A stretch of DNA of 21,622 nt from a virus: IMG/VR virus record IMGVR_UViG_3300020463_002394, positions 1-21,622 of that record. The stretch is one strand, 5' to 3'. Position numbers and translations under genes: made by a program. The notes under the pieces were generated by a model. That model saw nothing but the letters and a program-made list of their open reading frames with translations. It was not told the origin of the DNA and searched no databases. Positions 1 to 19,571 of this stretch are shown piece by piece; within the stretch, counting starts at the first letter, position 1; each line of letters begins with the position of its first letter.

Positions 1-914
1 CAAGGCAAGAAGTACCATTCAGGTACAATGTGTGCAGGAGTCACCAACGGGTTGGCTTCTATGTAGTTGTCTGGATGTCCGAGTATGTTAGGAAAGTTAA
101 ACAAGAAAAACATGAAAATTAAAATAAAGACAAGAAAAGCATACATGTCTTTGATTGTAATGTACGGATGGAACGATACTGTATCTCTGGTATCCTTTGG
201 CTCAACACCTGTTGGATTGTTGGAACCTGTCATGTGTAAAGCGATCACGTGAAAAACAACCACTGCAACAATTATAAATGCAATAAGCCAGTGTAGTACG
301 AAAGCTCTGTTTAGAAATGCATCGCCAACTGCATAATCACCCCATAACAAGGTGACTATACTATCACCTATCACAGGAATCGCTCCGAATAAACTTGTTA
401 TCACCGTAGCCCCCCAATAGCTCATTTGCCCCCATGGCAGAACATATCCTAGGAAAGCAGTGGCCATCATTAGGAAATAAATTATTATTCCGAATATCCA
501 CATAAGTTGTCGAGGCTCCTTGTATGAGCCAAAGTATAATCCGCGGAACATGTGTATGTACACTGCGATGAAAAAGAATGATGCCAGGTTCATGTGAGCA
601 TATCGCAACAACCAGCCGCCGTTGACATCTCTCATGATGTGTTCCACACTGCTGAAGGCCTCTGCGACACTTGGTTTGTAATGCATTCCAAGAACAAGTC
701 CGGTAGCAATTAAACCTAGCAAAGTAAATGTAAGTATGCCTCCAAAACTCCAAAAATAGTTTAAATTTTTTGGCACCTGGAAGTCCAAGTACTCATGTTT
801 GAACATTCTAAAGATAGGCAATCTGTTGTCCAACCACCCAAGGACTCCTGTGAAAGGAGAGGTGTTGTCTTTTACCTTATTGGTATGAACAGGTTTGTAA
901 TCCTTATTATCCAT
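1..914 (-). CDS. petB: Cytochrome b subunit of bc1 complex, phage-borne (partial, 3' end outside window)
   Basis: Cytochrome b is the membrane subunit of ubiquinol:cytochrome c oxidoreductase (complex III) and holds hemes bL and bH and the quinone sites. This frame is open for 304 codons from an ATG at 914 and runs off the left edge, so the last transmembrane helices are not seen. Visible features: heme ligands H107/H121 (RYAHMN, YIHMFRG) and H208/H222, each pair with 13 residues between them as in bc1; the cd1-region motif [15 protein letters not shown] near 159-173; NNPTG near 232-236; and the Qo motif PEWY at 298-301, the expected position. A single chain reaching PEWY with this spacing indicates bc1, not split b6/subunit IV. 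The match is closest in feel to alphaproteobacterial cytochrome b but divergent: helix D reads VLHWLIAF where bacterial sequences usually have a Pro. It starts 12 bases after the nrdB stop on the same strand, with no Shine-Dalgarno site. No Rieske or cytochrome c1 gene is in view. Confidence 0.93.
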
Positions 915-926
915 ATGCGTTTATAA

Positions 927-2027
927 TTAAAGTTTAAATTTGCTAAACTGGCCTTTTTTGACGTCTTGCTTGATACCACCAACAATGTATGACTCAACTT
1001 CTGTTTCTTGCGGTGCTACCTGCATACCTTTACTTGACAGCCAGTGTTGTGTCCATGGTAATGGATTCTGTGTTGCTGACACATCATATAGTGGGTCATA
1101 TCCAAGTGCTCTTAATCTTTTGTTGGCAATAAATTCAACGTACTTGCCAAGTAATTTTTCATTTAGTCCTATGATGGATCCGTCTTTGAACAAATATCTT
1201 GCCCATGCTTTCTCTTCTTCAACACAGTCTTTGAACATCTGGATAACTGTTTTTTCAGTGCCCTTGATCGCTTTTGTCATTTCGGGGTCATCACCCTTGT
1301 GCCATGCTTTCAATACGTGTGTTGATAGGTTCAAGTGTGTTGCCTCATCTCTCGCGATCAAAGATAATATTTTGGCTGAACCTTCCATAAGTTTAAGTTC
1401 ACCAAATGCGAATGTACAAGCGAATGATACATAGAATCTCAATCCTTCTAGCAAGTTCACAGTGTTCATTGCAAGATATAATTGTTTTTTCAGTGCCAAC
1501 ATGTCGACTTTTTTACCTACCGCATGTTCAAGTGCCATGTTTCCAAACTTATCATATTCTCCTGTAACACTTTTTGCTCTTTTCAATATCTCTTTGTCAT
1601 TTACGATTGTGTTAAACACTTCCGTTGGATCTGGATAAATGTTCTTCATAATGTGCGTGTATGATCTTGAGTGTATAGTTTCAAAGAAGTCCCAAGTCAC
1701 AATGCAACCTTCCAGTTCTGGATTGGACACATAAGGCAGGAACATCAAACTTGGACCTCTACCTTGCACACTGTCCAAAAGAGTTTGATATTTTAAATTA
1801 CTTGTGAATATGTGCTTCTGCTCTGGTCTGAAGTTCTGGAAGTCCGCTCTGTCCTTCTGCAATGACACTTCTTCTGGTCTCCAAAAGTATCCGATCATAG
1901 TTTGGTTCAGTTTGTCGAACTGTGGATACTTGAACTCGTCATATCTCTGCACTCCACCGTCCTCACCAAAGAACATAGGCTGTTTAGTAAAGTCAATATC
2001 TCTCTGGTTAAAAACTGTTTTTGTCAT
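927..2027 (-). CDS. nrdB: Ribonucleotide reductase class Ia, beta subunit
   Basis: Small (R2) subunit of aerobic ribonucleotide reductase. It houses the diiron-tyrosyl radical cofactor and passes the radical to NrdA for reduction of NDPs to dNDPs. The 366-residue protein is close to E. coli NrdB in length (about 376). Ligand residues are in place: D85 (LLDSVQGR), E116 and H119 (FFETIHSRSYTH), the radical tyrosine Y123, a Glu in FAFGELKLMEG, and Glu and His in RDEATHL. It appears catalytically complete. It lies 14 bases downstream of nrdA and 12 bases upstream of cytochrome b, so the three genes probably share transcripts. There is no clear Shine-Dalgarno site; a TATAAAT box sits just upstream of the ATG. 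Nucleotide metabolism genes of this kind are common in large lytic phages. Confidence 0.97.
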   Translation of the reverse strand: MTKTVFNQRDIDFTKQPMFFGEDGGVQRYDEFKYPQFDKLNQTMIGYFWRPEEVSLQKDRADFQNFRPEQKHIFTSNLKYQTLLDSVQGRGPSLMFLPYVSNPELEGCIVTWDFFETIHSRSYTHIMKNIYPDPTEVFNTIVNDKEILKRAKSVTGEYDKFGNMALEHAVGKKVDMLALKKQLYLAMNTVNLLEGLRFYVSFACTFAFGELKLMEGSAKILSLIARDEATHLNLSTHVLKAWHKGDDPEMTKAIKGTEKTVIQMFKDCVEEEKAWARYLFKDGSIIGLNEKLLGKYVEFIANKRLRALGYDPLYDVSATQNPLPWTQHWLSSKGMQVAPQETEVESYIVGGIKQDVKKGQFSKFKL

Positions 2028-2041
2028 AATAATTTATAATG

Positions 2042-4456
2042 TTAGATTGTGCAGGCTTCACACTCACCATCTTCGCCCGCGGATGTACTTATCTGATCAT
2101 TGCCATTTACGGCGTCTTCAGGTTCAAGTATCACATCTTCTCCATCGTCCTCTTGCTGTGCGGAAATACCCGCTGGTTGTACGTCTTCCTCTTCTCCCTT
2201 AAAATCATATGTGTTCTGATAATAACTTGTTTTCCATCCATACTTGTAAGCCGTCAGCATGTCTTGAGCCATGGCTGATAAAGGAACTTCATTATTTTCA
2301 AACTGCAATGGATTGTAACTCCAGTTTCCTGATATGGCCTGATCAAAGTATTTCTGCATCATTGCAACCACGTTAATGTATCCTTCATTGCTAGGCATAT
2401 CCCATAGTAATGTGTAGTCATTTTTTAATTTAGGGAAACCAGGTGCGATCTGTTTCAATGGACCTTTTTTACTTTTCTTGATTGACATCAATGCTCTAGG
2501 TGGTTCAATGCCGTTTGTTTCATTACTAACAACGGAAGAACTTTCTGATGGCATTTGTGCTGATAGTGTGCTGTGTCTTAATCCGTATTTGGCGATATCT
2601 TTTCTTAAACTTTCCCAAGCCATTCTTTGTTTGTGCGGAACTATTTCGTCGACTTCTTTTTTGTAGTGGTCAATTGGTAGTAAGCCATCTGCATATTTTG
2701 TTCTCTCGAAACCTTCACACTTACCTTTTTCCATTGCTATGTCACAACTTGACCTTAGTAGATGATATTGGAATGCTTCTGTTAGTCTGTCAACAAGTGT
2801 CCATGCTTCAGGATCAGAATACTTAACACCATTCTTGGCCAGGTAATGTGCTAGTCCAATATAGCCTATACCTAAGCTTCTTCTTTTCTTTGTGCTGACT
2901 TCAGCGGCCCTCACTGGGTAATCTTGATAGTCTATGATTTGCTCAAGTGCTCTCACACTGAGGTCACAAACATTTTCTAATTCTCCTAGATCATTCAATG
3001 CACCAACATTTACTGCGGAAAGGATACATAGTGCTATCTCTCCTTCTGCATCATCGATGTGTTGAATTGGAGTTGTAGGAAGTGTTATCTCTTGACAAAG
3101 GTTACTCATTGACACTTTGTCTTTGAAAGAACTGTGTGAATTACAGTGGTCTAAATTCATTATATAGATCCTACCTGTCTCAGCTCTTTCTTTTAAAAGA
3201 TCAAAGAACAAGTCTTGTGCCGGTACTGTTTTCTTTGGAATTGTTTTATCCGCTTCGTATTTCAAATAAAGATCGTCAAAGTCTTCTGTACCGAATGCTT
3301 CATAAAGTCCTGGGGCCATGTGTGGAGAGATTAGAGTGATATCTTCTTCGTTCATGAATCTCTCATAGAACATTTTAGATATTTGTATAGAATAATCCAT
3401 ACGTCTCACTCTGTTGTCTTCTGTGCCTTTATTATTTTTAAGTACAAGTATGTCTTCAATTTCTGGGTGCCATATAGGGAAGTGTACAGTTGCGTTTCCA
3501 CCACGCACACCATTCTGCGTACAACATCTTACAGTTGATTCGAATTTTTTAAGGAACGGAATGACTCCTGTGTGTTGAACCTCCCCACCTCTGATTTTAG
3601 AATTTATGCCTCTGATACGTCCTGCGTTTATTCCTATGCCTGCCCTTCTGGCAACGTATAGACCTATCGCCATATCACTTGAAAAGATACTTGGCAATGT
3701 GTCATCACTGTCCACTAAGACGCAAGAAGCAAACTGTCTGATAGGTGTTCTCACTCCTGCCATGACAGGAGTTGGAATGTTTATTTTGTGTTGTGATATT
3801 GCGTCATAGTATTTTTTTACGTATGACATTCTTGTTTTTGTTGGATAGTCGGCAAACAAAGTTGCCGCAATCATCATGTACATGTCTTGTGGAGTTTCAT
3901 AGATCTGTCCCGAGCTTCTGTCCTGTACAAGATACTTGTCGCATATCTGTCTTAACCCTGCATATGTGAATTTTAAATCTCTGTCTCTCTTAATCCATGT
4001 GTTAAATTTTTTAATTTCTGTTTTTGAATACTTGTCTAGGATGCCTTTATCATACACTCCTAGTCTGATGTTTCTTAATATTAATTTCAACAATGGAATA
4101 TATTCGTATTGTCCATGTGCTTCTTTCCTAACGTCATAGGATAGGAGCCTTGCCGCGGCATACTGATAGTTTGGATAATCTAAACTTATAAGATCGTTGG
4201 CTGAACGAACCAAAACATTTTGGATGTCCTTGGTAGTCATGCCATCATAGAACTGAATGTTTGCATTCATTTCGATTTGCGATGAACTTACACCTGTCAA
4301 TCCTTCACAGGCTTCTTCAACGACGAAATGAATCTTATTGATATCAAGCGGCTCTAGCCTACCATCTCTTTTTTGAACTTTGATCGTACTAGAGTTGGTG
4401 TTCGGCATTAAGTTTTTATAATTTTTATTTTTGATTTTTGTTTTTGTTGTATCCAT
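2042..4456 (-). CDS. nrdA: Ribonucleotide reductase class Ia, alpha subunit
   Basis: Large (R1) catalytic subunit, reducing ribonucleoside diphosphates to deoxyribonucleotides with NrdB. An ATP-cone-like segment lies near residues 25-110 (starts KVQKRDGRLEPLDINK). The catalytic core shows the redox cysteines (SCVLVD; ALCILSAVN), the N-x-C-x-E active-site triad in SNLCQEI, and the radical-transfer tyrosine pair in SYYQNT. The C-terminus ends CEACTI, the reducible cysteine pair, here spaced CxxC rather than the wider E. coli spacing. At 804 residues it is longer than E. coli NrdA (761); part of the excess is a long acidic linker of about 45 residues between YYQNT and the terminal cysteines. It is first in the nrdA-nrdB-cytochrome b array. 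The ATG at 4456 directly follows an AGATAAAT box; M17 (4408) is a less likely start because the ATP cone begins soon after it. Confidence 0.97.
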   Translation of the reverse strand: MDTTKTKIKNKNYKNLMPNTNSSTIKVQKRDGRLEPLDINKIHFVVEEACEGLTGVSSSQIEMNANIQFYDGMTTKDIQNVLVRSANDLISLDYPNYQYAAARLLSYDVRKEAHGQYEYIPLLKLILRNIRLGVYDKGILDKYSKTEIKKFNTWIKRDRDLKFTYAGLRQICDKYLVQDRSSGQIYETPQDMYMMIAATLFADYPTKTRMSYVKKYYDAISQHKINIPTPVMAGVRTPIRQFASCVLVDSDDTLPSIFSSDMAIGLYVARRAGIGINAGRIRGINSKIRGGEVQHTGVIPFLKKFESTVRCCTQNGVRGGNATVHFPIWHPEIEDILVLKNNKGTEDNRVRRMDYSIQISKMFYERFMNEEDITLISPHMAPGLYEAFGTEDFDDLYLKYEADKTIPKKTVPAQDLFFDLLKERAETGRIYIMNLDHCNSHSSFKDKVSMSNLCQEITLPTTPIQHIDDAEGEIALCILSAVNVGALNDLGELENVCDLSVRALEQIIDYQDYPVRAAEVSTKKRRSLGIGYIGLAHYLAKNGVKYSDPEAWTLVDRLTEAFQYHLLRSSCDIAMEKGKCEGFERTKYADGLLPIDHYKKEVDEIVPHKQRMAWESLRKDIAKYGLRHSTLSAQMPSESSSVVSNETNGIEPPRALMSIKKSKKGPLKQIAPGFPKLKNDYTLLWDMPSNEGYINVVAMMQKYFDQAISGNWSYNPLQFENNEVPLSAMAQDMLTAYKYGWKTSYYQNTYDFKGEEEDVQPAGISAQQEDDGEDVILEPEDAVNGNDQISTSAGEDGECEACTI

Positions 4457-4581: not shown

Positions 4582-4597
4582 TATAAGATAATTGATT

Positions 4598-6190
4598 TTA
4601 TGCTAGGATGGTTGTTTGGTAATCTATTATTGCCGCCGTACCTGTACTGGTAGTTGTAAACCTAAATGAAACTGTTTCACTGCCTGCAGTTGAATCTTTA
4701 TTGTCTAGTGTGGCTGTCAATGTGACACCAGCAGTAGCACCGCTTTCTGTGAATGTGTCATCGAAACTAATACCATTCGTTGATGCACTTATTATTAATT
4801 CACCTGTTCTATCAAGAGTACCTCTAGTAATTTTATACTTTATTGATATTCCTTTACTTGTCAGTGCTGGAAATTCGTTTATCGTAGTGGCCGACGATGT
4901 GTTGTCAGGTAAAGTCTGTGATTTAATTAATTTGGTTGTGACACCTATACCTTGTACTTCCGGTGCCGCGTTTGTACTGCCATCCGATCTTCTCGCATCA
5001 GTCCTCTCAAAAAAGTCTTGGACAGATGAACACTCATCATTGTCGAATTGAATAATTGGTACTTCTCTGATCGAGCCAACACCTTCGAAGTTGTTAGCAA
5101 CAGTCTTTGCGTAAAAGTTGGCGTGTGAAACTATATGTCTTGGTCCGGCATCATCTGTTGTGCCTGTCGCCGGGGCCACTAAAATTGCCTGCTGTCCTAT
5201 GTCACTCCAACTCGAACTGGTAAATTGGACGTCTCGTGGTCCATCATCAAGTCCTGTTGTACTACCGTCCATCTCTGCACCAATTAGTGCTCCATAGAAT
5301 GCTGTTTTGAAATCACAGGCATGGAATTTGATGTTAGTGCAATTAAAACTTAAATCAACTAGCCTTGCAAATTTTGTAAATTGGCATTGGTTGAATACAA
5401 TATTTGATGTTGAATGTGTTGAAGTAGAATTTGTAACCGTTACACCTTTTGAATTAGAAGAGTCAGTTCCTCCAGAAGCAAATGTTCCTTGGAATTTGAC
5501 ATTATTAAAATATGCGTTCGTAACCCTGTCTAATGAAACACCTCCGTAGGCTACAGATGTTCTCAAAGTCATATTTGTTATCTGTATCTGAGTCGGTGTT
5601 GTAGCACTAGAGTTTCCTATGTTTGATCCAACGTTGCCTTCGTCATCTTGCATTACCATTACAGCATTGTTTCCTGAATTCTTGATTATCGTTTTGTCTG
5701 GACCTTCACCCACTAGGTGAGCGAATGGTGGAATTTTGAGTGCTGAACTAATTTTGTATGTGCCTGCTGGGAAAAATAATACTCTCCTTGCCCTAGTATC
5801 GTCTTTGTCCGTGTCAATGTATAACTCGTCGATTGCATTTTGTATCGCAGTAAGGTCTGCTGTAGAGTCATCACCCTTTGCACCAAAATCTCTGACAGAA
5901 ACATATTCGTCTAATCTGTTTTGTAAGGTCCTCTGTTGAGATGTTGTGATAGGCGTTGAATCACCTAGGTAGCCTTTGTAGGTGTAACTGAGAGCGGTTG
6001 TAAATGCTGAACTTCCTTCAGTTACAATTTCAGTGTTTCCCACAGCCGGTGCACCATCGGACACGGTTCCATTACCTATGAACAATCTCTGTTCATCGAT
6101 TACCCAACCTAGTTCTCCTGCCGCTAATTGTGGCAGATCCGTACGTTTTCCACGTCTGTGCTGTATTCTTGATATCTGTACTATCGGCAT
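4598..6190 (-). CDS. Tail spike / tail fibre protein with pectate-lyase-type beta-helix
   Basis: Probable receptor-binding or glycan-degrading virion protein of 530 residues. The first 60 or so residues (RIQHRRGKRTDLPQLAAGELGW, then DEQRLFIGNGT) match the pattern of the Mtd N-terminal-like module that attaches many phage fibres. Residues around 95-125 (VSVRDFGAKGDDSTADLTAIQ) are the classic opening of a pectate-lyase-3 parallel beta-helix. The helix body is rich in Asn, Thr and Ser. From about 430 onward a separate beta-rich C-terminal domain follows. Depolymerase activity is possible, but no catalytic residues can be assigned by eye. The ATG at 6190 has no Shine-Dalgarno site; a CATAAATA box lies at 6198-6205. 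The radical SAM gene upstream ends 10 bases away. Confidence 0.85.
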   Translation of the reverse strand: MPIVQISRIQHRRGKRTDLPQLAAGELGWVIDEQRLFIGNGTVSDGAPAVGNTEIVTEGSSAFTTALSYTYKGYLGDSTPITTSQQRTLQNRLDEYVSVRDFGAKGDDSTADLTAIQNAIDELYIDTDKDDTRARRVLFFPAGTYKISSALKIPPFAHLVGEGPDKTIIKNSGNNAVMVMQDDEGNVGSNIGNSSATTPTQIQITNMTLRTSVAYGGVSLDRVTNAYFNNVKFQGTFASGGTDSSNSKGVTVTNSTSTHSTSNIVFNQCQFTKFARLVDLSFNCTNIKFHACDFKTAFYGALIGAEMDGSTTGLDDGPRDVQFTSSSWSDIGQQAILVAPATGTTDDAGPRHIVSHANFYAKTVANNFEGVGSIREVPIIQFDNDECSSVQDFFERTDARRSDGSTNAAPEVQGIGVTTKLIKSQTLPDNTSSATTINEFPALTSKGISIKYKITRGTLDRTGELIISASTNGISFDDTFTESGATAGVTLTATLDNKDSTAGSETVSFRFTTTSTGTAAIIDYQTTILA

Positions 6191-6200
6191 ATGTTGTTAT

Positions 6201-7325
6201 TTATGTCCATGAAGGATTGAACGTTTTAACGAAATCTGTGCCTCTTACATCGTCAAGCATTGTGAAATATTGCTTGAACCTTGTGTGTAAATTATTATCA
6301 AATTCATAGTTTTCCAACCAATTATGTACTACTTTAACCTTGGGCGTGTTGATCGTGGATAACCATCTTTTGAATTTTTCGACGTCTAGTTTGTCAGCAC
6401 TGCTCAACGTAAGATGTCCGGAACCATCAACTGAGCCACCATAGATCTCTCCTATCTCCAGTGCGATGTCATTTTCCACACAGTACTCATACACAGGTCT
6501 AAATGTAAAAAGTGAAGTATGTTGTAGGATGTAGTAGAATAATATTCTAACATTCTTCTCCTTGAGTCTTTTAACATTTGTTTCAATATCCTCCCATGCA
6601 CTGCCGCTCCTTATGTAATTGTTGTGATGGCCTATACCATCAATACTGATGTTGACAATTACATTTGGTCTGTTTTCAAGTAATTCCAAAGTGCTATCAG
6701 AGAGTGTAGTTCCATTTGTGTTGAAAGATAGTTCTGCATCATGTTTAATCTCTTTCAAAAAATCATCAATAAATGGATTGATAAAAGGTTCACCACCCCC
6801 GAAGTTTGCAGATACACAGTTTCTAAGAATTTCTTTAATGAAAGTTTTGTTTTCTTGGCTGTTTATCCAGTCGTGATCCAATTTTAAATATCCAATGTTA
6901 AACTGCGAAAATTTTTCTTTATTTTTCTTGGCTTCAGCAGACCACTGTGAACTTGCGTACGGTCCACACATGGTGCATTTTAAATTGCAAAAATTTCCAA
7001 GCCTCACTTCCAGATGTCCAACATCAAGGGTGTCTGCCTGAAAAGACTCATACTCCTCTTTGAACAACCTACTATGATAGGCCCTTCTATTGATTCCATT
7101 ACCCTCACGTTTAATACAATACCTGCAACCTCCGTCTACTTCTCCATCAAGCATTTTTTGGCGTAGTGTGGTGTCCGCTCTATACTTTTCAAACTCCCAA
7201 ATCTTGTATTGTGGTAATGAAGATTCATTTCGTATGAATTCACAACACGGCATCAATGTGCCATCGTTGTCCACCACGAGTCCACGGAAAGGTGCCTTAC
7301 AGAATTTTTCTGGTTCTGTTTTCAT
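6201..7325 (-). CDS. Radical SAM enzyme with N-terminal twitch/SPASM-like domain (copy 1)
   Basis: A 374-residue radical S-adenosylmethionine enzyme. The catalytic 4Fe-4S motif CxxxCxxC is C113, C117, C120 (NFCNLKCTMC), followed by GGGEP at 176-180, which binds SAM. Before it, C9 (FCKAPF), C27-C28 (MPCC), C67 and C70 (GCRYC) form a set that would ligate an auxiliary Fe-S cluster, so the order is auxiliary domain then radical SAM domain. The N-terminal pattern CxxPF...DGxxxxCC is that of SPASM/twitch domains. Enzymes of this shape often modify peptides or proteins, but no substrate can be named here. A TTAAATA box (7332-7338) stands 6 bases before the ATG in place of a Shine-Dalgarno site. Its neighbours are the tail spike and the nuclease. 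Confidence 0.9.
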   Translation of the reverse strand: MKTEPEKFCKAPFRGLVVDNDGTLMPCCEFIRNESSLPQYKIWEFEKYRADTTLRQKMLDGEVDGGCRYCIKREGNGINRRAYHSRLFKEEYESFQADTLDVGHLEVRLGNFCNLKCTMCGPYASSQWSAEAKKNKEKFSQFNIGYLKLDHDWINSQENKTFIKEILRNCVSANFGGGEPFINPFIDDFLKEIKHDAELSFNTNGTTLSDSTLELLENRPNVIVNISIDGIGHHNNYIRSGSAWEDIETNVKRLKEKNVRILFYYILQHTSLFTFRPVYEYCVENDIALEIGEIYGGSVDGSGHLTLSSADKLDVEKFKRWLSTINTPKVKVVHNWLENYEFDNNLHTRFKQYFTMLDDVRGTDFVKTFNPSWT

Positions 7326-8056: not shown

Positions 8057-9343
8057 TTACTTTAACGAATTTGTCAAAGTTTCTTCTAGTTTTGGCAGTA
8101 AATTACGCCAAGTGTTACCTTTCCTGTGATTATCTTGCGTGTCGTTATATCTAATAAAATTTGCTCGTAAATTTTTTCCTGTATCTTCATCGAGCTGATC
8201 TATTCTTAAATTATCAATCTGTTTTTCATAGAAGTATGATATGCCCTTGTATGTCTTAAAATACTCAACGCTTTTTTCAAGTTTGTCTGCAACCATCAAC
8301 CTGTATTCCCTGGGTGCTATGTCGTAGTTACATATACGAGGGTACCATACCTGTGCCATCCACGATACATTAAAAGTGTTGCCCCAGTCGCCGTCTGAAA
8401 AGTCTATGAACCATTTAAGCATGTCATCTAATTGATGTATGTTCAATAGTTGTATCGCAGGACTAAAGGTTATTGAACCATTACCGTGCTTGTCTAATAA
8501 TTTTTTGTAATAATATAAATTCTCTGTAATCTTTTTAAAGTTGCTAGGATATCTGATGTATTCTGTTGTTGAACCGAGGCCATCCAAACTAGCCCAGATG
8601 CGCCAACGTTTCATTTCAGGTAGCCACTGTGTCATTTTAGGATTTGTGTTAGTAAGATTTGTGACTATAGTTATATCTTTGTCCTTGAGTGTATTGTTCT
8701 TGTAACAAAAATCCAAAAGTTCATAAAATTCTGGAATCACTGTTGGCTCGCCACCTATCACTGTCAGTTGTGTTATATTTTTACTAACATATTCTATAAG
8801 TCTATTCTTAATTTTTTTGTTTTGAAACCAAGTGTATTCCACTGAAAGGTCGTTTGTCCAGTTGTTAACATTACCACTTTGTTTGTATACCCAATCTAAG
8901 AAGTCTTTATCTTTTTCTCCAATTTGTAATATCTCTTTGCCTATTTGATTCGAATAATCTTGTCCACACATTTTACATTTCAAATTGCAGACATTACCAA
9001 AATGTAATTCCATAGAGTGCGGCAGAATGTCCATTGATCCATCATCCTTTAATCTAGCCAGATTTTCTTCTTCATGTCGATTATCCCTCATGGATTTGTA
9101 GCCACGTTCCTCTTGTTCTATACACTTTGCACATGCCTTTAACACTTCTCCGTCCTTCATTTTTAGTCTTGCGTCTTTCATGTAATCACTGTTCCAGGCC
9201 TTCTGTAATGAGTCATTGTTCATGTGCAACCTGTTGCCCTTCTTGTCTGTGGCGTTTTCCATTGTGGCACAGCATAACCTTACAGATCCGGACATGTGGA
9301 TATATTGATGTTGGAAAGGGAAAGCACAATAAGTTTTAGGCAT
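8057..9343 (-). CDS. Radical SAM enzyme with N-terminal twitch/SPASM-like domain (copy 2)
   Basis: Radical SAM enzyme of 428 residues with the same order of parts as the gene ending at 6201. Auxiliary-cluster cysteines are C6 (TYCAFPF), C24-C25 (LCC), C71 and C74 (CAKC); the catalytic CxxxCxxC is C119, C123, C126 (NVCNLKCKMC); GGEP follows in TVIGGEP. The ATG at 9343 was chosen over an in-frame ATG at 9397 because GGAG lies 6 bases upstream and the MPKTYCAFPF start matches the family pattern; the longer form would add 18 unconserved residues and overlap the next gene by 62 bases. As called, it overlaps the upstream radical SAM gene by 8 bases, which suggests coupled translation. The substrate is unknown. 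Confidence 0.88.
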   Translation of the reverse strand: MPKTYCAFPFQHQYIHMSGSVRLCCATMENATDKKGNRLHMNNDSLQKAWNSDYMKDARLKMKDGEVLKACAKCIEQEERGYKSMRDNRHEEENLARLKDDGSMDILPHSMELHFGNVCNLKCKMCGQDYSNQIGKEILQIGEKDKDFLDWVYKQSGNVNNWTNDLSVEYTWFQNKKIKNRLIEYVSKNITQLTVIGGEPTVIPEFYELLDFCYKNNTLKDKDITIVTNLTNTNPKMTQWLPEMKRWRIWASLDGLGSTTEYIRYPSNFKKITENLYYYKKLLDKHGNGSITFSPAIQLLNIHQLDDMLKWFIDFSDGDWGNTFNVSWMAQVWYPRICNYDIAPREYRLMVADKLEKSVEYFKTYKGISYFYEKQIDNLRIDQLDEDTGKNLRANFIRYNDTQDNHRKGNTWRNLLPKLEETLTNSLK

Positions 9344-10340
9344 TGACAACTCCACAGGTATGATAACAAGTCTGCAAACGGTATGCATCTCGCTCACCTT
9401 GTATACCTCTTCCTAACTCTTTGAAGAAATATCCGTCAAGTATTTCTTCTAGGCTGGTATGATTGATATTAATTGTTTTGTAATCTTTTATTATGTTTTT
9501 TGTTTCATGTATCTTTAGATCTCCCAACCAACAGCATGGACTGACATCTCCGTTTGCCGCTAGATATATTTCGCTTTTTGTGTCATGATATGACCAACAG
9601 TTAATCTTTCTAGTTTTGAAAGAATCATTGACTTTTGATTTTTGTGTAACATCTAGTCCTGGGGCCTTGGATTCTCTTTCAACTTTTTCTAGTGTGTAGT
9701 TTCCTATTTGTATTGATGTTCTCTGTATCCAGTTACCATCGCTGTCAAAGTCATCCCATCTTGTGGTATCTTTTTTATTAAAATGTTGAAATCCTAGTTT
9801 CTTAGACAGTGCTTCTGCTTCTGCAATTTGATGTACGTTATGTTTGAACACTAGGAAATCCCAATATGCTCTCCCACCTGCACCAATAAAGGCCTGTACA
9901 TTCTCAATTAGTTTTTCCCATTTAACGTTTCTCCTGTACAGATGATTTGTGTCCTCCAACCCGTCTATTGCAAATATCACGTGGGTCTTTGTGTCAGCCA
10001 ATGCTCGCCAAAAGTCTACGTTTCTGGGGCCTCCATTTGTGTTTAGAGATGTGTGAGATGTGCCTGAAGTTTTGACATAATCATATATTTCCACACATTC
10101 AGGATTCATCGCTCCGTCGCCCAACACTCCACATGAATAAAATTTTTTTAAATTAGTCAATACTTTGCTACCTATTTTTTCCCTTATTATTTCGAGACTG
10201 GTGTGTGAATTATTTGTGATATCTTTTATTAAGTTTAGATCAAAATCAAATCGTGGACACATTGGACAAGCGGAGTTGCAGTAATTAGACAACTCGGCAT
10301 TAATTGTGTTTAGATTACCAATAGTAATGTATGGACTCAT
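9336..10340 (-). CDS. Radical SAM/SPASM enzyme (copy 3)
   Basis: A 334-residue radical SAM protein with domains in the usual SPASM order: the catalytic CxxxCxxC comes first at C21, C25, C28 (NYCNSACPMCPR), and the auxiliary set is C-terminal at C248, C269-C270 (VSPCC), C325 and C329 (TCYHTC). The usual GGEP is replaced by GDGAMNP near 74-80. It therefore differs from the two neighbouring radical SAM proteins, whose auxiliary domain precedes the catalytic one. SPASM enzymes act on peptides or proteins in characterised cases, but no small precursor-peptide gene is apparent beside it. No Shine-Dalgarno site precedes the ATG. The following radical SAM gene starts inside its last codons. Confidence 0.87.
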   Translation of the reverse strand: MSPYITIGNLNTINAELSNYCNSACPMCPRFDFDLNLIKDITNNSHTSLEIIREKIGSKVLTNLKKFYSCGVLGDGAMNPECVEIYDYVKTSGTSHTSLNTNGGPRNVDFWRALADTKTHVIFAIDGLEDTNHLYRRNVKWEKLIENVQAFIGAGGRAYWDFLVFKHNVHQIAEAEALSKKLGFQHFNKKDTTRWDDFDSDGNWIQRTSIQIGNYTLEKVERESKAPGLDVTQKSKVNDSFKTRKINCWSYHDTKSEIYLAANGDVSPCCWLGDLKIHETKNIIKDYKTININHTSLEEILDGYFFKELGRGIQGERDAYRLQTCYHTCGVVNA

Positions 10341-17360: not shown

Positions 17361-18398
17361 ATGCAACGAAATTTTATTCTCACAGATCTAATGAAAACCG
17401 GTAAGCATGTGGAGGTTGATCAGTTCATCAGTTCAAACAGCCTACAAGATCAGACTTTTGACTTAGAATCAGAATACTACCGTCTTCATAACTATGATCT
17501 TGAGAGCTACGACAGGCGATTAGCGATTGTTGATGTCCGCCACGACAACTACAGGCTAAAAGACAATAAAGAGTTCAAAATAGAATTTGAAAGGAGATGT
17601 AAACTACTACATAGCCTAGGCTTTGTGTTTATATCTGCTACACCATGGGAATCTGAAGATAATATTGCACAGACCGAACTGTATCCTAGTCTAAAAATTA
17701 ATCATATTAAATGGACAGGTGGCGTATCATGGTTCTGGTCCCACATGTATCACAAACACAAAGACAAAAAATATACTTTTGATCATTCACAGAAGAAGTA
17801 TGACTTCCTGTATCTAAATAAAAATCCTAGGAGGCACAGGGTAAAGATGTTTGAAAAACTTTCAAACACAGGTACGTTACAAAAAAGTTTGTATACATAT
17901 TGGCCTGACAAAAAACTCCCAAGGGAATACGAATTACCATGGGCCCAAGAGTATCCTCGGTACGGCATGGATCAAGACATCTATGAAAGGCCATACAACG
18001 ACACTGCTTGTAGCATAGTGTCCGAAACCAATGACAACGACACAGAAATTTTCATGACTGAAAAGATTTGGAAACCAATCATAGCACAACATATTTTTAT
18101 CGTGCATGGCAATTATCTATACCTACAGCGACTACGAGAAATGGGATTCCGGACATTCAATAATTATTTTGAAGAGGTCTATGATTTAGATAGAGATCCT
18201 AATATCAGAATAAACACTATCGCTGACGTGTGCGATAGGTTAATTGATGCCCCATGGCAGGACATATATCTACAAACGAAAGCACTTAGACAATACAACT
18301 ACGATAATTTTTTTAATAAAGAAAAATTAAGCCTTGAGATCAATAAAACTTTAAACCTATTTCTTGAATTTGCTGACAGCAGTCAAATTACGTCTTGA
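17361..18398 (+). CDS. Glycosyltransferase-like protein (fucosyltransferase GT10-type motif)
   Basis: The only supported plus-strand gene, 345 residues. The segment at about 220-251 (VSETNDNDTEIFMTEKIWKP and the following IIAQHIFIVHGN) matches the donor-binding signature of alpha-1,3-fucosyltransferase-like enzymes (E-N/T...TEK-W-...-P-v-G), and MGFRTFNN..FEEVYD after it is typical of related phage proteins. The N-terminal half (residues 1-150) is less clear. The predicted role is transfer of a sugar, perhaps to host surface glycans or virion proteins; the exact donor is unknown. There is no membrane segment. A weak AGGG precedes the ATG. The gene overlaps the convergent ligase-like gene by 42 bases at its end and is 19 bases from a divergent gene at its start. 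Confidence 0.6.
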   Translation: MQRNFILTDLMKTGKHVEVDQFISSNSLQDQTFDLESEYYRLHNYDLESYDRRLAIVDVRHDNYRLKDNKEFKIEFERRCKLLHSLGFVFISATPWESEDNIAQTELYPSLKINHIKWTGGVSWFWSHMYHKHKDKKYTFDHSQKKYDFLYLNKNPRRHRVKMFEKLSNTGTLQKSLYTYWPDKKLPREYELPWAQEYPRYGMDQDIYERPYNDTACSIVSETNDNDTEIFMTEKIWKPIIAQHIFIVHGNYLYLQRLREMGFRTFNNYFEEVYDLDRDPNIRINTIADVCDRLIDAPWQDIYLQTKALRQYNYDNFFNKEKLSLEINKTLNLFLEFADSSQITS

Positions 18399-19571
18399 GA
18401 ATCCTAATCTGTCTACAAGTTTAACAGCATTGCCTGACTTATCAACAGCAACAAAACCTTCCGGTTCAGTGACTTCCAATCCACTATCTGTCTGAGAGAA
18501 TGAACCTATCGCCATTGCTTGATTCATTTTTTTCAAAACAAATGCTTTCATAGTCTGCACTGCCTTATAAAATGTTAGCATAGCCTGGAGTGGTTTCTTT
18601 GCTCTGTTAAGGAAAACAGGCATCTGTTTCATTTTGTCCTGTCTTAGTTGAAGTGCCTTCTGTGCTTTTAGGCCTGCTATCTGCTTTTGCATCCTGTCAG
18701 CATAGAATTTTCTGAATCCTTGTAGAAATTTATTTGCATCACTAGGAAGTTGTCCTTGTTTGACCATTGCATTAATATACATCTGGAACATTGGAATGAA
18801 GTCTTGGTTTTGTCCAAGCACCGCCGAAAGGTTCCTTGGCACATTGTCAAGCAGTCCCTCGAGCTTTTCAATGCCGTTGTAGAACTGTTTTGTTTCTGCG
18901 TCAGTAAACTTGGCACTGCCAGACACATCCTTATAGGTTGCATTGTCAAAGAACACATCACTGCTTTTTGTAAAAGAACTTACGTCTGCTCCACCTTGTG
19001 CGTTCATCTCGGATAGAGAGTCGCCCACATAAGTTGTATGGAATATTATTCCAACTTTTGCCCTGTCTATTTGCTTTCCTAGGTCGCCACCTTCTGGTAC
19101 AGCATAGGTAATGGTGTTTGGTGTGAAAATCAGATGTGGCTTGCCTTCGATGTTCTTCCTGGTAATGTCTTCGTCTGTAAACAATAAATCTCCTTGAACT
19201 ACACCCCCTATGTTTAATTTTTTGATATGCACAAGACATTTTAGTAACTTTTGCCCTAGCTCGTCTGTGCCGTGGTTGTTTGCTATATCTTTCTTTGTGT
19301 AATTTATTTTTGGAGACTTTGCAAACACAGACTTTGTTCCAACAAAAAATCTTCCATTATCTGGATTAGTTCCACACACAACGGCAGGAGCACCGTCCCA
19401 CTTGACAGACACACTCATAGCCTCAGAGCTGGTACCTTTCAATGTTAGCAACAGGCCCCTGAAGTAGTCCAGGACCGCCTTGCCACCTTCGTACCCATCT
19501 GTGATTACAATATCCTCGATGTGTTCTAGGTGTGTCCTTTTGAATTCTGTAAGGACATCTTCTATCAACAT
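18357..19571 (-). CDS. Covalent nucleotidyltransferase-like protein (DNA/RNA-ligase fold, KWDG motif)
   Basis: A 404-residue protein with the signature of ligase/capping-type nucleotidyltransferases: motif I K57-W-D-G60 (VKWDGAPAVV) with the lysine that would carry AMP, a FFVGTKSVF strand near 75-83, a VVQGDLLF segment at 124-131, KVGIIFHTTY at 172-181, motif IV E371-G-F-V and motif V VKLV with K384. Between 200 and 360 a long Lys/Gln-rich helical insertion separates the N-terminal motifs from IV and V. Homologues of this general type occur in marine T4-like phages, usually left as proteins of unknown function. The activity (strand sealing, end adenylation or other) cannot be read from sequence. 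A good AGAGGA ribosome site precedes the ATG. Its last 42 bases overlap the plus-strand gene. Confidence 0.72.
   Translation of the reverse strand: MLIEDVLTEFKRTHLEHIEDIVITDGYEGGKAVLDYFRGLLLTLKGTSSEAMSVSVKWDGAPAVVCGTNPDNGRFFVGTKSVFAKSPKINYTKKDIANNHGTDELGQKLLKCLVHIKKLNIGGVVQGDLLFTDEDITRKNIEGKPHLIFTPNTITYAVPEGGDLGKQIDRAKVGIIFHTTYVGDSLSEMNAQGGADVSSFTKSSDVFFDNATYKDVSGSAKFTDAETKQFYNGIEKLEGLLDNVPRNLSAVLGQNQDFIPMFQMYINAMVKQGQLPSDANKFLQGFRKFYADRMQKQIAGLKAQKALQLRQDKMKQMPVFLNRAKKPLQAMLTFYKAVQTMKAFVLKKMNQAMAIGSFSQTDSGLEVTEPEGFVAVDKSGNAVKLVDRLGFSRRNLTAVSKFKK

Follow-up and report, generated by a model that had tools for sequence, protein, structure and literature searches.

Cytochrome b, a core subunit of the bc1 complex (complex III), is encoded within phage genomes and not in a host flank. 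Judged from the sequences, the phage gene is real, is present on many independent contigs, looks functional and has been little described. It was found in the window, which is the whole stretch of DNA analyzed (an IMG/VR record of 21,622 bases, classed as linear), and in 74 further viral records. Phages have probably acquired in this gene a working cytochrome b that would assemble with the Rieske protein and cytochrome c1 of the host and keep the bc1 complex running during infection.

The window contig and its viral relatives

The features of the window on which the analysis draws are as follows.

3..914, minus strand: cytochrome b of the bc1 complex (petB/CYTB); the contig end truncates it after 304 N-terminal residues (ORF and Pfam)
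594..596, minus strand: codon of heme ligand H107 (R. capsulatus H97); H in 73/75 viral rows (2 gaps) and 54/54 bacterial rows
552..554, minus strand: codon of heme ligand H121 (R. capsulatus H111); H in 73/75 viral rows (2 gaps) and 54/54 bacterial rows
291..293, minus strand: codon of heme ligand H208 (R. capsulatus H198); H in 75/75 viral and 54/54 bacterial rows
249..251, minus strand: codon of heme ligand H222 (R. capsulatus H212); H in 75/75 viral and 54/54 bacterial rows
12..23, minus strand: PEWY motif of the quinol oxidation (Qo) site, residues 298–301 (alignment of 75 viral and 54 bacterial rows)
927..2027, minus strand: nrdB, small subunit of class Ia ribonucleotide reductase, directly upstream of cytochrome b (phrog_86, 500.3 bits)
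2042..4456, minus strand: nrdA, large subunit of class Ia ribonucleotide reductase (phrog_84, 1120.7 bits)
4598..6190, minus strand: tail fibre/spike-like protein with an Mtd_N domain, a phage marker of the contig (Pfam, PHROG)
18357..19571, minus strand: phrog_455 protein, common to HTVC008M and many cyanophages (42.8% over the full length to HTVC008M)

The cytochrome b reading frame starts with ATG and is free of stops for 304 codons up to the contig end, and the window covers the first 304 of about 416 residues of the protein. Pfam searches gave 227 bits for Cytochrome_B and 150 bits for Cytochrom_B_N_2 with the N-terminal domain complete, and only the first 19 of the 102 positions of Cytochrom_B_C, the rest of which is cut off by the contig end. 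Only related NCBIfam models (b6, ExtP, actinobacterial QcrB, and SoxC) matched, all below their cut-offs, with no proteobacterial cytochrome b model among the matches. The first-pass annotation had described a complex III cytochrome b frame directly behind phage nrdAB, and the ORF, the Pfam domains and the 12-base gap that separates the end of nrdB from the cytochrome b start codon agree with it. Because this gap measures 11–13 bases across loci, cytochrome b is probably co-transcribed with the phage genes for nucleotide synthesis. Among the isolate matches to nrdB, Pelagibacter phage HTVC008M ranked first (65.7%), and the nearest isolates for both NrdB and the phrog_455 protein were HTVC008M and cyanophages; the kinship of these two genes is the only guide to which phage family the window's clade belongs to. 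The window also holds three radical SAM genes (6201–7325, 8057–9397, and 9336–10340), two of them with a SPASM domain above cut-off, and its sole plus-strand ORF of more than 200 amino acids lies at 17361–18398.

Comparison of the window protein with IMG/VR viral contigs gave 34 loci with 58–99% identity. When IMG/VR was scanned again, using a cytochrome b from Pelagibacter as the bait, 46 loci were obtained. Forty of them were new records; the other six (L295, L298, L310, L312, L314, and L319) were contigs already in the first set and were dropped, and the viral set consists of 74 further records and the window, 75 in all. In the relatives the gene is complete. A stop codon is present in 30 of the 34 loci of the first scan and in 42 of the 46 of the second, the remaining 4/34 and 4/46 run off the 3' end of the available sequence, and ORFs with both ends available encode 397–434 amino acids. 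The full-length viral relative L030 carries the N-terminal and C-terminal cytochrome b domains, both complete, in one chain (Pfam).

Some of the carrier phages are, by their genes, clearly T4-like. Judged from gene kinship, the carriers probably infect marine alphaproteobacteria of the SAR11 and HIMB59 kinds. The T4-like markers Gp23 and phrog_2 terminase were found in 2/75 and 4/75 records, respectively (two of the four weakly), and phrog_2 is a poor marker alone, as it also matches 11 of 14 control genomes. Records G022 and G335 carry a T4-like terminase (by phrog_36964, >400 bits) and tail sheath, and the Gp23 capsid protein is present in G022 and G362. The 172-kb record G015 is without Gp23 and phrog_2 and contains a phage DNA polymerase (phrog_262, 653.5 bits).

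A breakpoint between nrdB and cytochrome b, which the first-pass annotation had named as a sign of assembly error, was not seen. The several independent phage contigs with this linkage that it had hoped for do exist: nrdB lies directly upstream of cytochrome b in 11 records, window included, and in nine contigs cytochrome b is flanked by nrdB and, on its other side, by the PAAR or c33 gene of these phages (in one of the nine, G005, the nrdB adjacency was taken from locus L123 on the same contig). The window also belongs to a phage-only clade, of 20 rows (100/99), and no host petB-petC flank was found. Whole-record searches detected cytochrome c1 in 0/34 and 0/40 and the Rieske protein likewise in 0/34 and 0/40 of the further viral records; among 14 control genomes, the same searches matched c1 in one (Caulobacter) and Rieske in 10. 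As most records are fragments (the longest are 172, 156, and 132 kb, and none is shown to be complete), absence from a single record is weak evidence and absence from all 74 is stronger. In the available records phage cytochrome b is thus a lone core subunit, and it would work inside a host complex.

That a host petB end was fused to a phage contig, or that bacterial contigs were misfiled as viral, is scarcely credible. The cytochrome b gene of the window does run off the contig end, and viral collections do contain host flanks, such as those of the NuoB loci L199 and L201 and of a Helicobacter phage record that looks alike. However, nine contigs carry phage genes on both sides of cytochrome b, and neither Rieske nor c1 was found in any of the 74 records. 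Contamination would also give near-identical copies. Pelagibacter cells are very common in surface sea water, but the Pelagibacter bait gave 46 loci of which none exceeded 71% identity, together with a separate second viral clade. Since identity to the bait peaked at 69% for full-length alignments and at 71% for two partial ones, the viral loci are not disguised Pelagibacter contigs. The closest bacterial protein among the matches listed (the best 80 of 592 relatives in genome contigs) is 77% identical, the comparison genomes (150 and 147) having been drawn from larger groups. One contig first suspected to be phage, L036 from a 'Fonsibacter' MAG, is bacterial and carries Rieske-cytochrome b-c1.

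Conserved sites, repeated capture and host petB

The alignment upholds the first-pass statement that the four heme ligands (H107, H121, H208, and H222), their spacing and PEWY are intact. The heme histidines of the window and its relatives form two pairs, 13 residues apart within each pair. The glutamate of PEWY is E in 71 of the 75 viral rows (N in 1, gap in 3) and in 51 of the 54 bacterial rows (N in 3). With R. capsulatus numbering, the offset of which was checked on the alignment, H217, K251, D252, E295, and M140 are taken here to be the known Qi and Qo sites. No viral row with a letter at these positions deviates at the Qi residues H217, K251, and D252 or at any of the four heme histidines. 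For Qo E295, 71 of the 72 viral rows with a letter agree, the exception having N as do three bacterial rows. Selection gave a similar picture. The median dN/dS in the window clade was 0.025, from 5 usable pairs; two other viral clades gave 0.049 (8 pairs) and 0.050 (78 pairs), and SAR11-III hosts gave 0.054 (12 pairs). The inputs were 19, 7, 20, and 13 rows, and a pair counted only if its dS was 0.05–1.5. These values indicate purifying selection on viral cytochrome b about as strong as in hosts. A structure model of L005 was of middling confidence (mean pLDDT 67.2), and its top Foldseek matches were bc1 cytochrome b chains (TM 0.80). With active-site residues kept and dN/dS low, the first-pass view of a protein that looks functional rather than a relic holds at the sequence level.

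The phage protein may instead alter complex III by forming hybrid complexes with changed quinone or inhibitor affinity, which would slow the host chain or divert electrons. We consider this unlikely. Of the 133 columns conserved in 95% of bacterial rows, nine differ in >10% of full-length viral rows (e.g., residues 33, 174, 204, 338, and 339 in L005 numbering), M140 of the Qo region is V, T or I in 10/75 viral rows vs I in 4/54 bacterial rows, and a pseudoazurin-like carrier encoded beside cytochrome b in G362 (see below) could change the electron acceptor. Against these changes, the other 124 columns are kept in at least 90% of full-length viral rows, and there is otherwise no change in the heme ligands or in those Qi and Qo residues that were checked.

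The phylogenetic tree contained 129 rows, the 54 bacterial ones chosen by hand. Because six of the seven changes of the viral label on this tree are forced by well-supported branches, cytochrome b was captured several times by phages. A second viral-only clade of 36 rows (100/99) lies far from the window's clade, and seven further viral rows are sister to the SAR11-III clade (99/95). The loci L024, L025, and L034 group with SAR11-III (100/99), their placement within it being weak (85/76). In addition, one HIMB59 lineage contains L030 and L031 (100/97), and L033 falls with another HIMB59 type (100/100). A separate clade (100/99) comprises L018, L022, L309, L311, and L313, and L287 is isolated on a long branch. 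The host groups are referred to as HIMB59, SAR11-I, and SAR11-III, assignments that we presume to be correct. HIMB59a refers to the type of cytochrome b in L037–L039, and HIMB59b to a second type in the same order.

It is very improbable that the gene is a selectively neutral passenger moved by recombination. Its presence is patchy, as cytochrome b is adjacent in five of the best 80 of 599 nrdB loci (79 of them with at least 600 bases downstream), a count from which, like the other scans, the commonness of viral cytochrome b cannot be read. A passenger, however, would not be expected to show purifying selection near host strength, intact ORFs of the lengths given above, and several captures.

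In SAR11-III and HIMB59a, the petB gene of the host itself has a separate history. The operon in the loci compared is still contiguous, in the order Rieske-cytochrome b-c1. The mean identity of SAR11-III to SAR11-I vs HIMB59a is 68.4% vs 58.5% for Rieske and 64.7% vs 53.4% for c1, and the order is reversed for cytochrome b, with 60.1% to SAR11-I vs 65.6% to HIMB59a. AU tests on 18 loci (L273 and L275 gave no Rieske) rejected the union of SAR11-III with HIMB59a for Rieske and c1 together (p 2e-8), and for cytochrome b rejected SAR11-III with SAR11-I (p 1.3e-4) and HIMB59a with HIMB59b (p 0.014); the group of SAR11-III and HIMB59a was named after the trees had been seen, and its p-value is not that of a blind test. 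From the AU tests and the identities it follows that the middle gene, petB, alone has another history in these groups. The host loci with a petB history unlike that of petA and petC in the AU tests are L036, L038, L254–L256, L260, L267, and L269, and the affected cytochrome b genes belong to a 63-row clade (100/100) that includes 37 viral rows.

A tentative explanation, to which we give slightly less than even credence, is that phage cytochrome b recombined into these hosts and replaced petB alone in petABC, the phages being a moving pool of complex III subunits. A constrained tree that joins both host groups and excludes three viral-only clades was not rejected (p 0.195), nor was another constrained tree (p 0.149), and for this reason transfer from phage to host is not claimed. 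Exchange among bacteria, with phages as mere takers, is compatible with the data because the first of these trees was not rejected. The much smaller p-values of other constrained tests show only that the viral rows, and the host rows, are each not one group. If recombination from phages is true, these bacteria respire with a complex whose central subunit has passed through viruses, and the process could explain how a single subunit comes to be replaced within a conserved respiratory operon.

Gene neighbors and the proposed role

The gene order in the window lineage is nrdA-nrdB-cytochrome b-PAAR. In 21 records of the second clade, a class II ribonucleotide reductase is encoded no more than three genes upstream of cytochrome b (one representative identified by family search, the others by similarity). 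Ribonucleotide reductase is thus upstream in two unrelated settings, class I in 11 records and class II in 21. The order in L030 is nuoB-sufB-cytochrome b-quinone-dependent pyrD, and L031 has the same order without sufB; L198 has nuoB-sufB-pyrD and no cytochrome b in the available stretch. The members of this cassette vary between the related contigs L196, L197, L198, and L202. Other features of the carrier phages are listed below.

L030:8038–8541, also in L031: phage NuoB, the N2 subunit of complex I (NF005012, 268.6 bits vs cut-off of 116)
L333:19008–19475 (record G362): pseudoazurin-like copper protein, directly upstream of cytochrome b (Copper-bind domain; 107.5 bits vs pseudoazurin cut-off of 109.85)
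G015 35232–36665, G025 37902–39350, L410:2887–3285, L413:4344–4916, and L341:11273–11596: genes for SufB, SufE, NfuA, and ferredoxin (SufB of G025 by similarity only)
L018:6960–7937: uroporphyrinogen decarboxylase of the heme pathway (PF01208)

The search for NuoB covered 34 of the 74 viral records with cytochrome b; two of these had it, and so did both bacterial controls. As phage NuoB loci, L199 and L201 were left out, having further host nuo genes downstream, as was L200, which is cut right after NuoB. In INPHARED, NuoB matched eight records with <60% identity, two of them annotated as nuoB (Acinetobacter phage MD-2021a). Relatives of the pseudoazurin-like protein of G362 are also directly upstream of cytochrome b in L294 and L296. 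When 2,556 ORFs from 76 stretches were compared with genome G225, cytochrome b was matched in 73 stretches and any other host gene in 15 at most; the two host genes reaching 15 were the ribonucleotide reductase subunits, at <30% identity. The other host-like genes confirmed by Pfam include SufB, SufE, NfuA, an Fe-S biosynthesis protein, ferredoxin, uroporphyrinogen decarboxylase, and glutaredoxin, and their annotations point to a theme of iron-sulfur and heme supply among the genes of cytochrome b phages. A TctA-like carboxylate transporter, the likeness being judged by eye, occurs in four cytochrome b phages (G015 4593–6029, G022 147076–148584, G034 47958–49394, and G005).

In the proposed role, phage cytochrome b would enter the host membrane and take up two b hemes, and would then assemble with the Rieske protein and cytochrome c1 of the host. 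Once host gene expression is shut down, the host cytochrome b would be replaced or topped up, and quinol oxidation, proton pumping and ATP supply would be kept up for dNTP synthesis and phage replication. The hosts, a lytic life, expression, hybrid host complexes and the benefit to the phage are what we infer from these data. The bc1 complex may outlast a short infection, which would make replacement needless, and the low count of adjacent cytochrome b among the nrdB loci, being that of a flexible cargo, also tells against maintenance.

The main use of the protein could also lie in nucleotide supply, with bc1 reoxidizing the quinol from quinone-dependent dihydroorotate dehydrogenase and so feeding dNTP synthesis, respiration being secondary. 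Linkage with both class I and class II ribonucleotide reductases and with quinone-dependent PyrD in L030 and L031 is in accord with such a use, which is nevertheless quite unlikely: PyrD is linked in one phage lineage only, and ribonucleotide reductase is a common phage cargo (4,874 records match nrdB) and its adjacency may be incidental. The maintenance of complex III makes a testable claim, namely that phages keep this complex running by one replaceable subunit.

Comparison with known systems

The first-pass annotation had held that cytochrome b is not a standard phage cargo gene. This is true of sequenced phages but not of virome reports, in which CYTB has already been listed (PMC3877843; PMC10653327). 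No PHROG matched cytochrome b at E 0.001, and a search of the 50,697 phage records of INPHARED gave a single match, at 42%, at the edge of the record of Helicobacter phage Pt11470_1. This match is probably a host flank or prophage edge, as a protein with two CxxCH motifs follows cytochrome b, and it was not counted as a carrier. The Helicobacter phage record in question, PQ159902.1, deposited as 'complete', ends in cytochrome b (35684–36736) and probably includes host flank. No cultured phage with cytochrome b was found in sequenced phage records.

Reports also exist on respiratory genes in marine viral fractions. The available part of a 2013 study counts seven CYTB reads in two viromes (PMC3877843), and that of a 2023 viromics study names CYTB and petB among the AMGs at 5 and 50 m, CYTB in one sentence (PMC10653327). 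Complexes IV and V have been validated as virus-encoded in PMC4053976, the main text of which does not contain 'complex III', and reads of NADH dehydrogenase and cbb3 oxidase in the viral fraction are given in the accessible part of PMC3474794. The word 'cytochrome' is absent from the main text of a global ocean AMG survey (PMC11360552), and the accessible text of PMC6109700, PMC11480375, and PMC10452541 holds nothing on phage complex III cytochrome b. Searches of the open-licence PubMed Central literature found neither a study of phage cytochrome b genomes nor a paper joining nuoB, phage and auxiliary metabolic genes. As far as their accessible text goes, the virome reports (PMC3877843; PMC10653327; PMC4053976; PMC3474794) resemble the present work in that the same or neighboring respiratory functions were counted in marine viral fractions; they consist of annotation counts and contig linkage, to which gene context, phylogeny, active sites, missing partners and repeated capture are added here.

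The proteobacterial cytochromes b of R. sphaeroides, R. capsulatus, and P. denitrificans are 52–56% identical to the viral protein (Foldseek alignments) and like it are full-length single proteins with four heme ligands and PEWY, whereas the viral version is phage-encoded and lies outside any petABC operon. The plastocyanin, PTOX, and NDH genes of cyanophages are likewise phage electron-carrier genes, and the plastocyanin family phrog_515 (PetE) matches the pseudoazurin-like protein of G362 weakly (35.3 bits); unlike them, the genes described here are alphaproteobacterial respiratory versions. The nearest parallel in kind is that of cyanophage psbA and psbD. The products of these genes, D1 and D2, are lone core redox subunits of a multi-subunit membrane complex that phages carry without the partners, and the genes have been exchanged between phage and host lineages. 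They belong to photosystem II, whereas cytochrome b belongs to complex III of heterotrophic respiration and is known from metagenomic contigs. By analogy, its maintaining role would be like that of phage D1 in photosystem II. SAR11-type bacteria, the probable hosts of these phages, are among the most numerous cells in the sea, and phage cytochrome b would be the counterpart, for aerobic respiration, of the phage photosynthesis genes that changed the view of marine photosynthesis.
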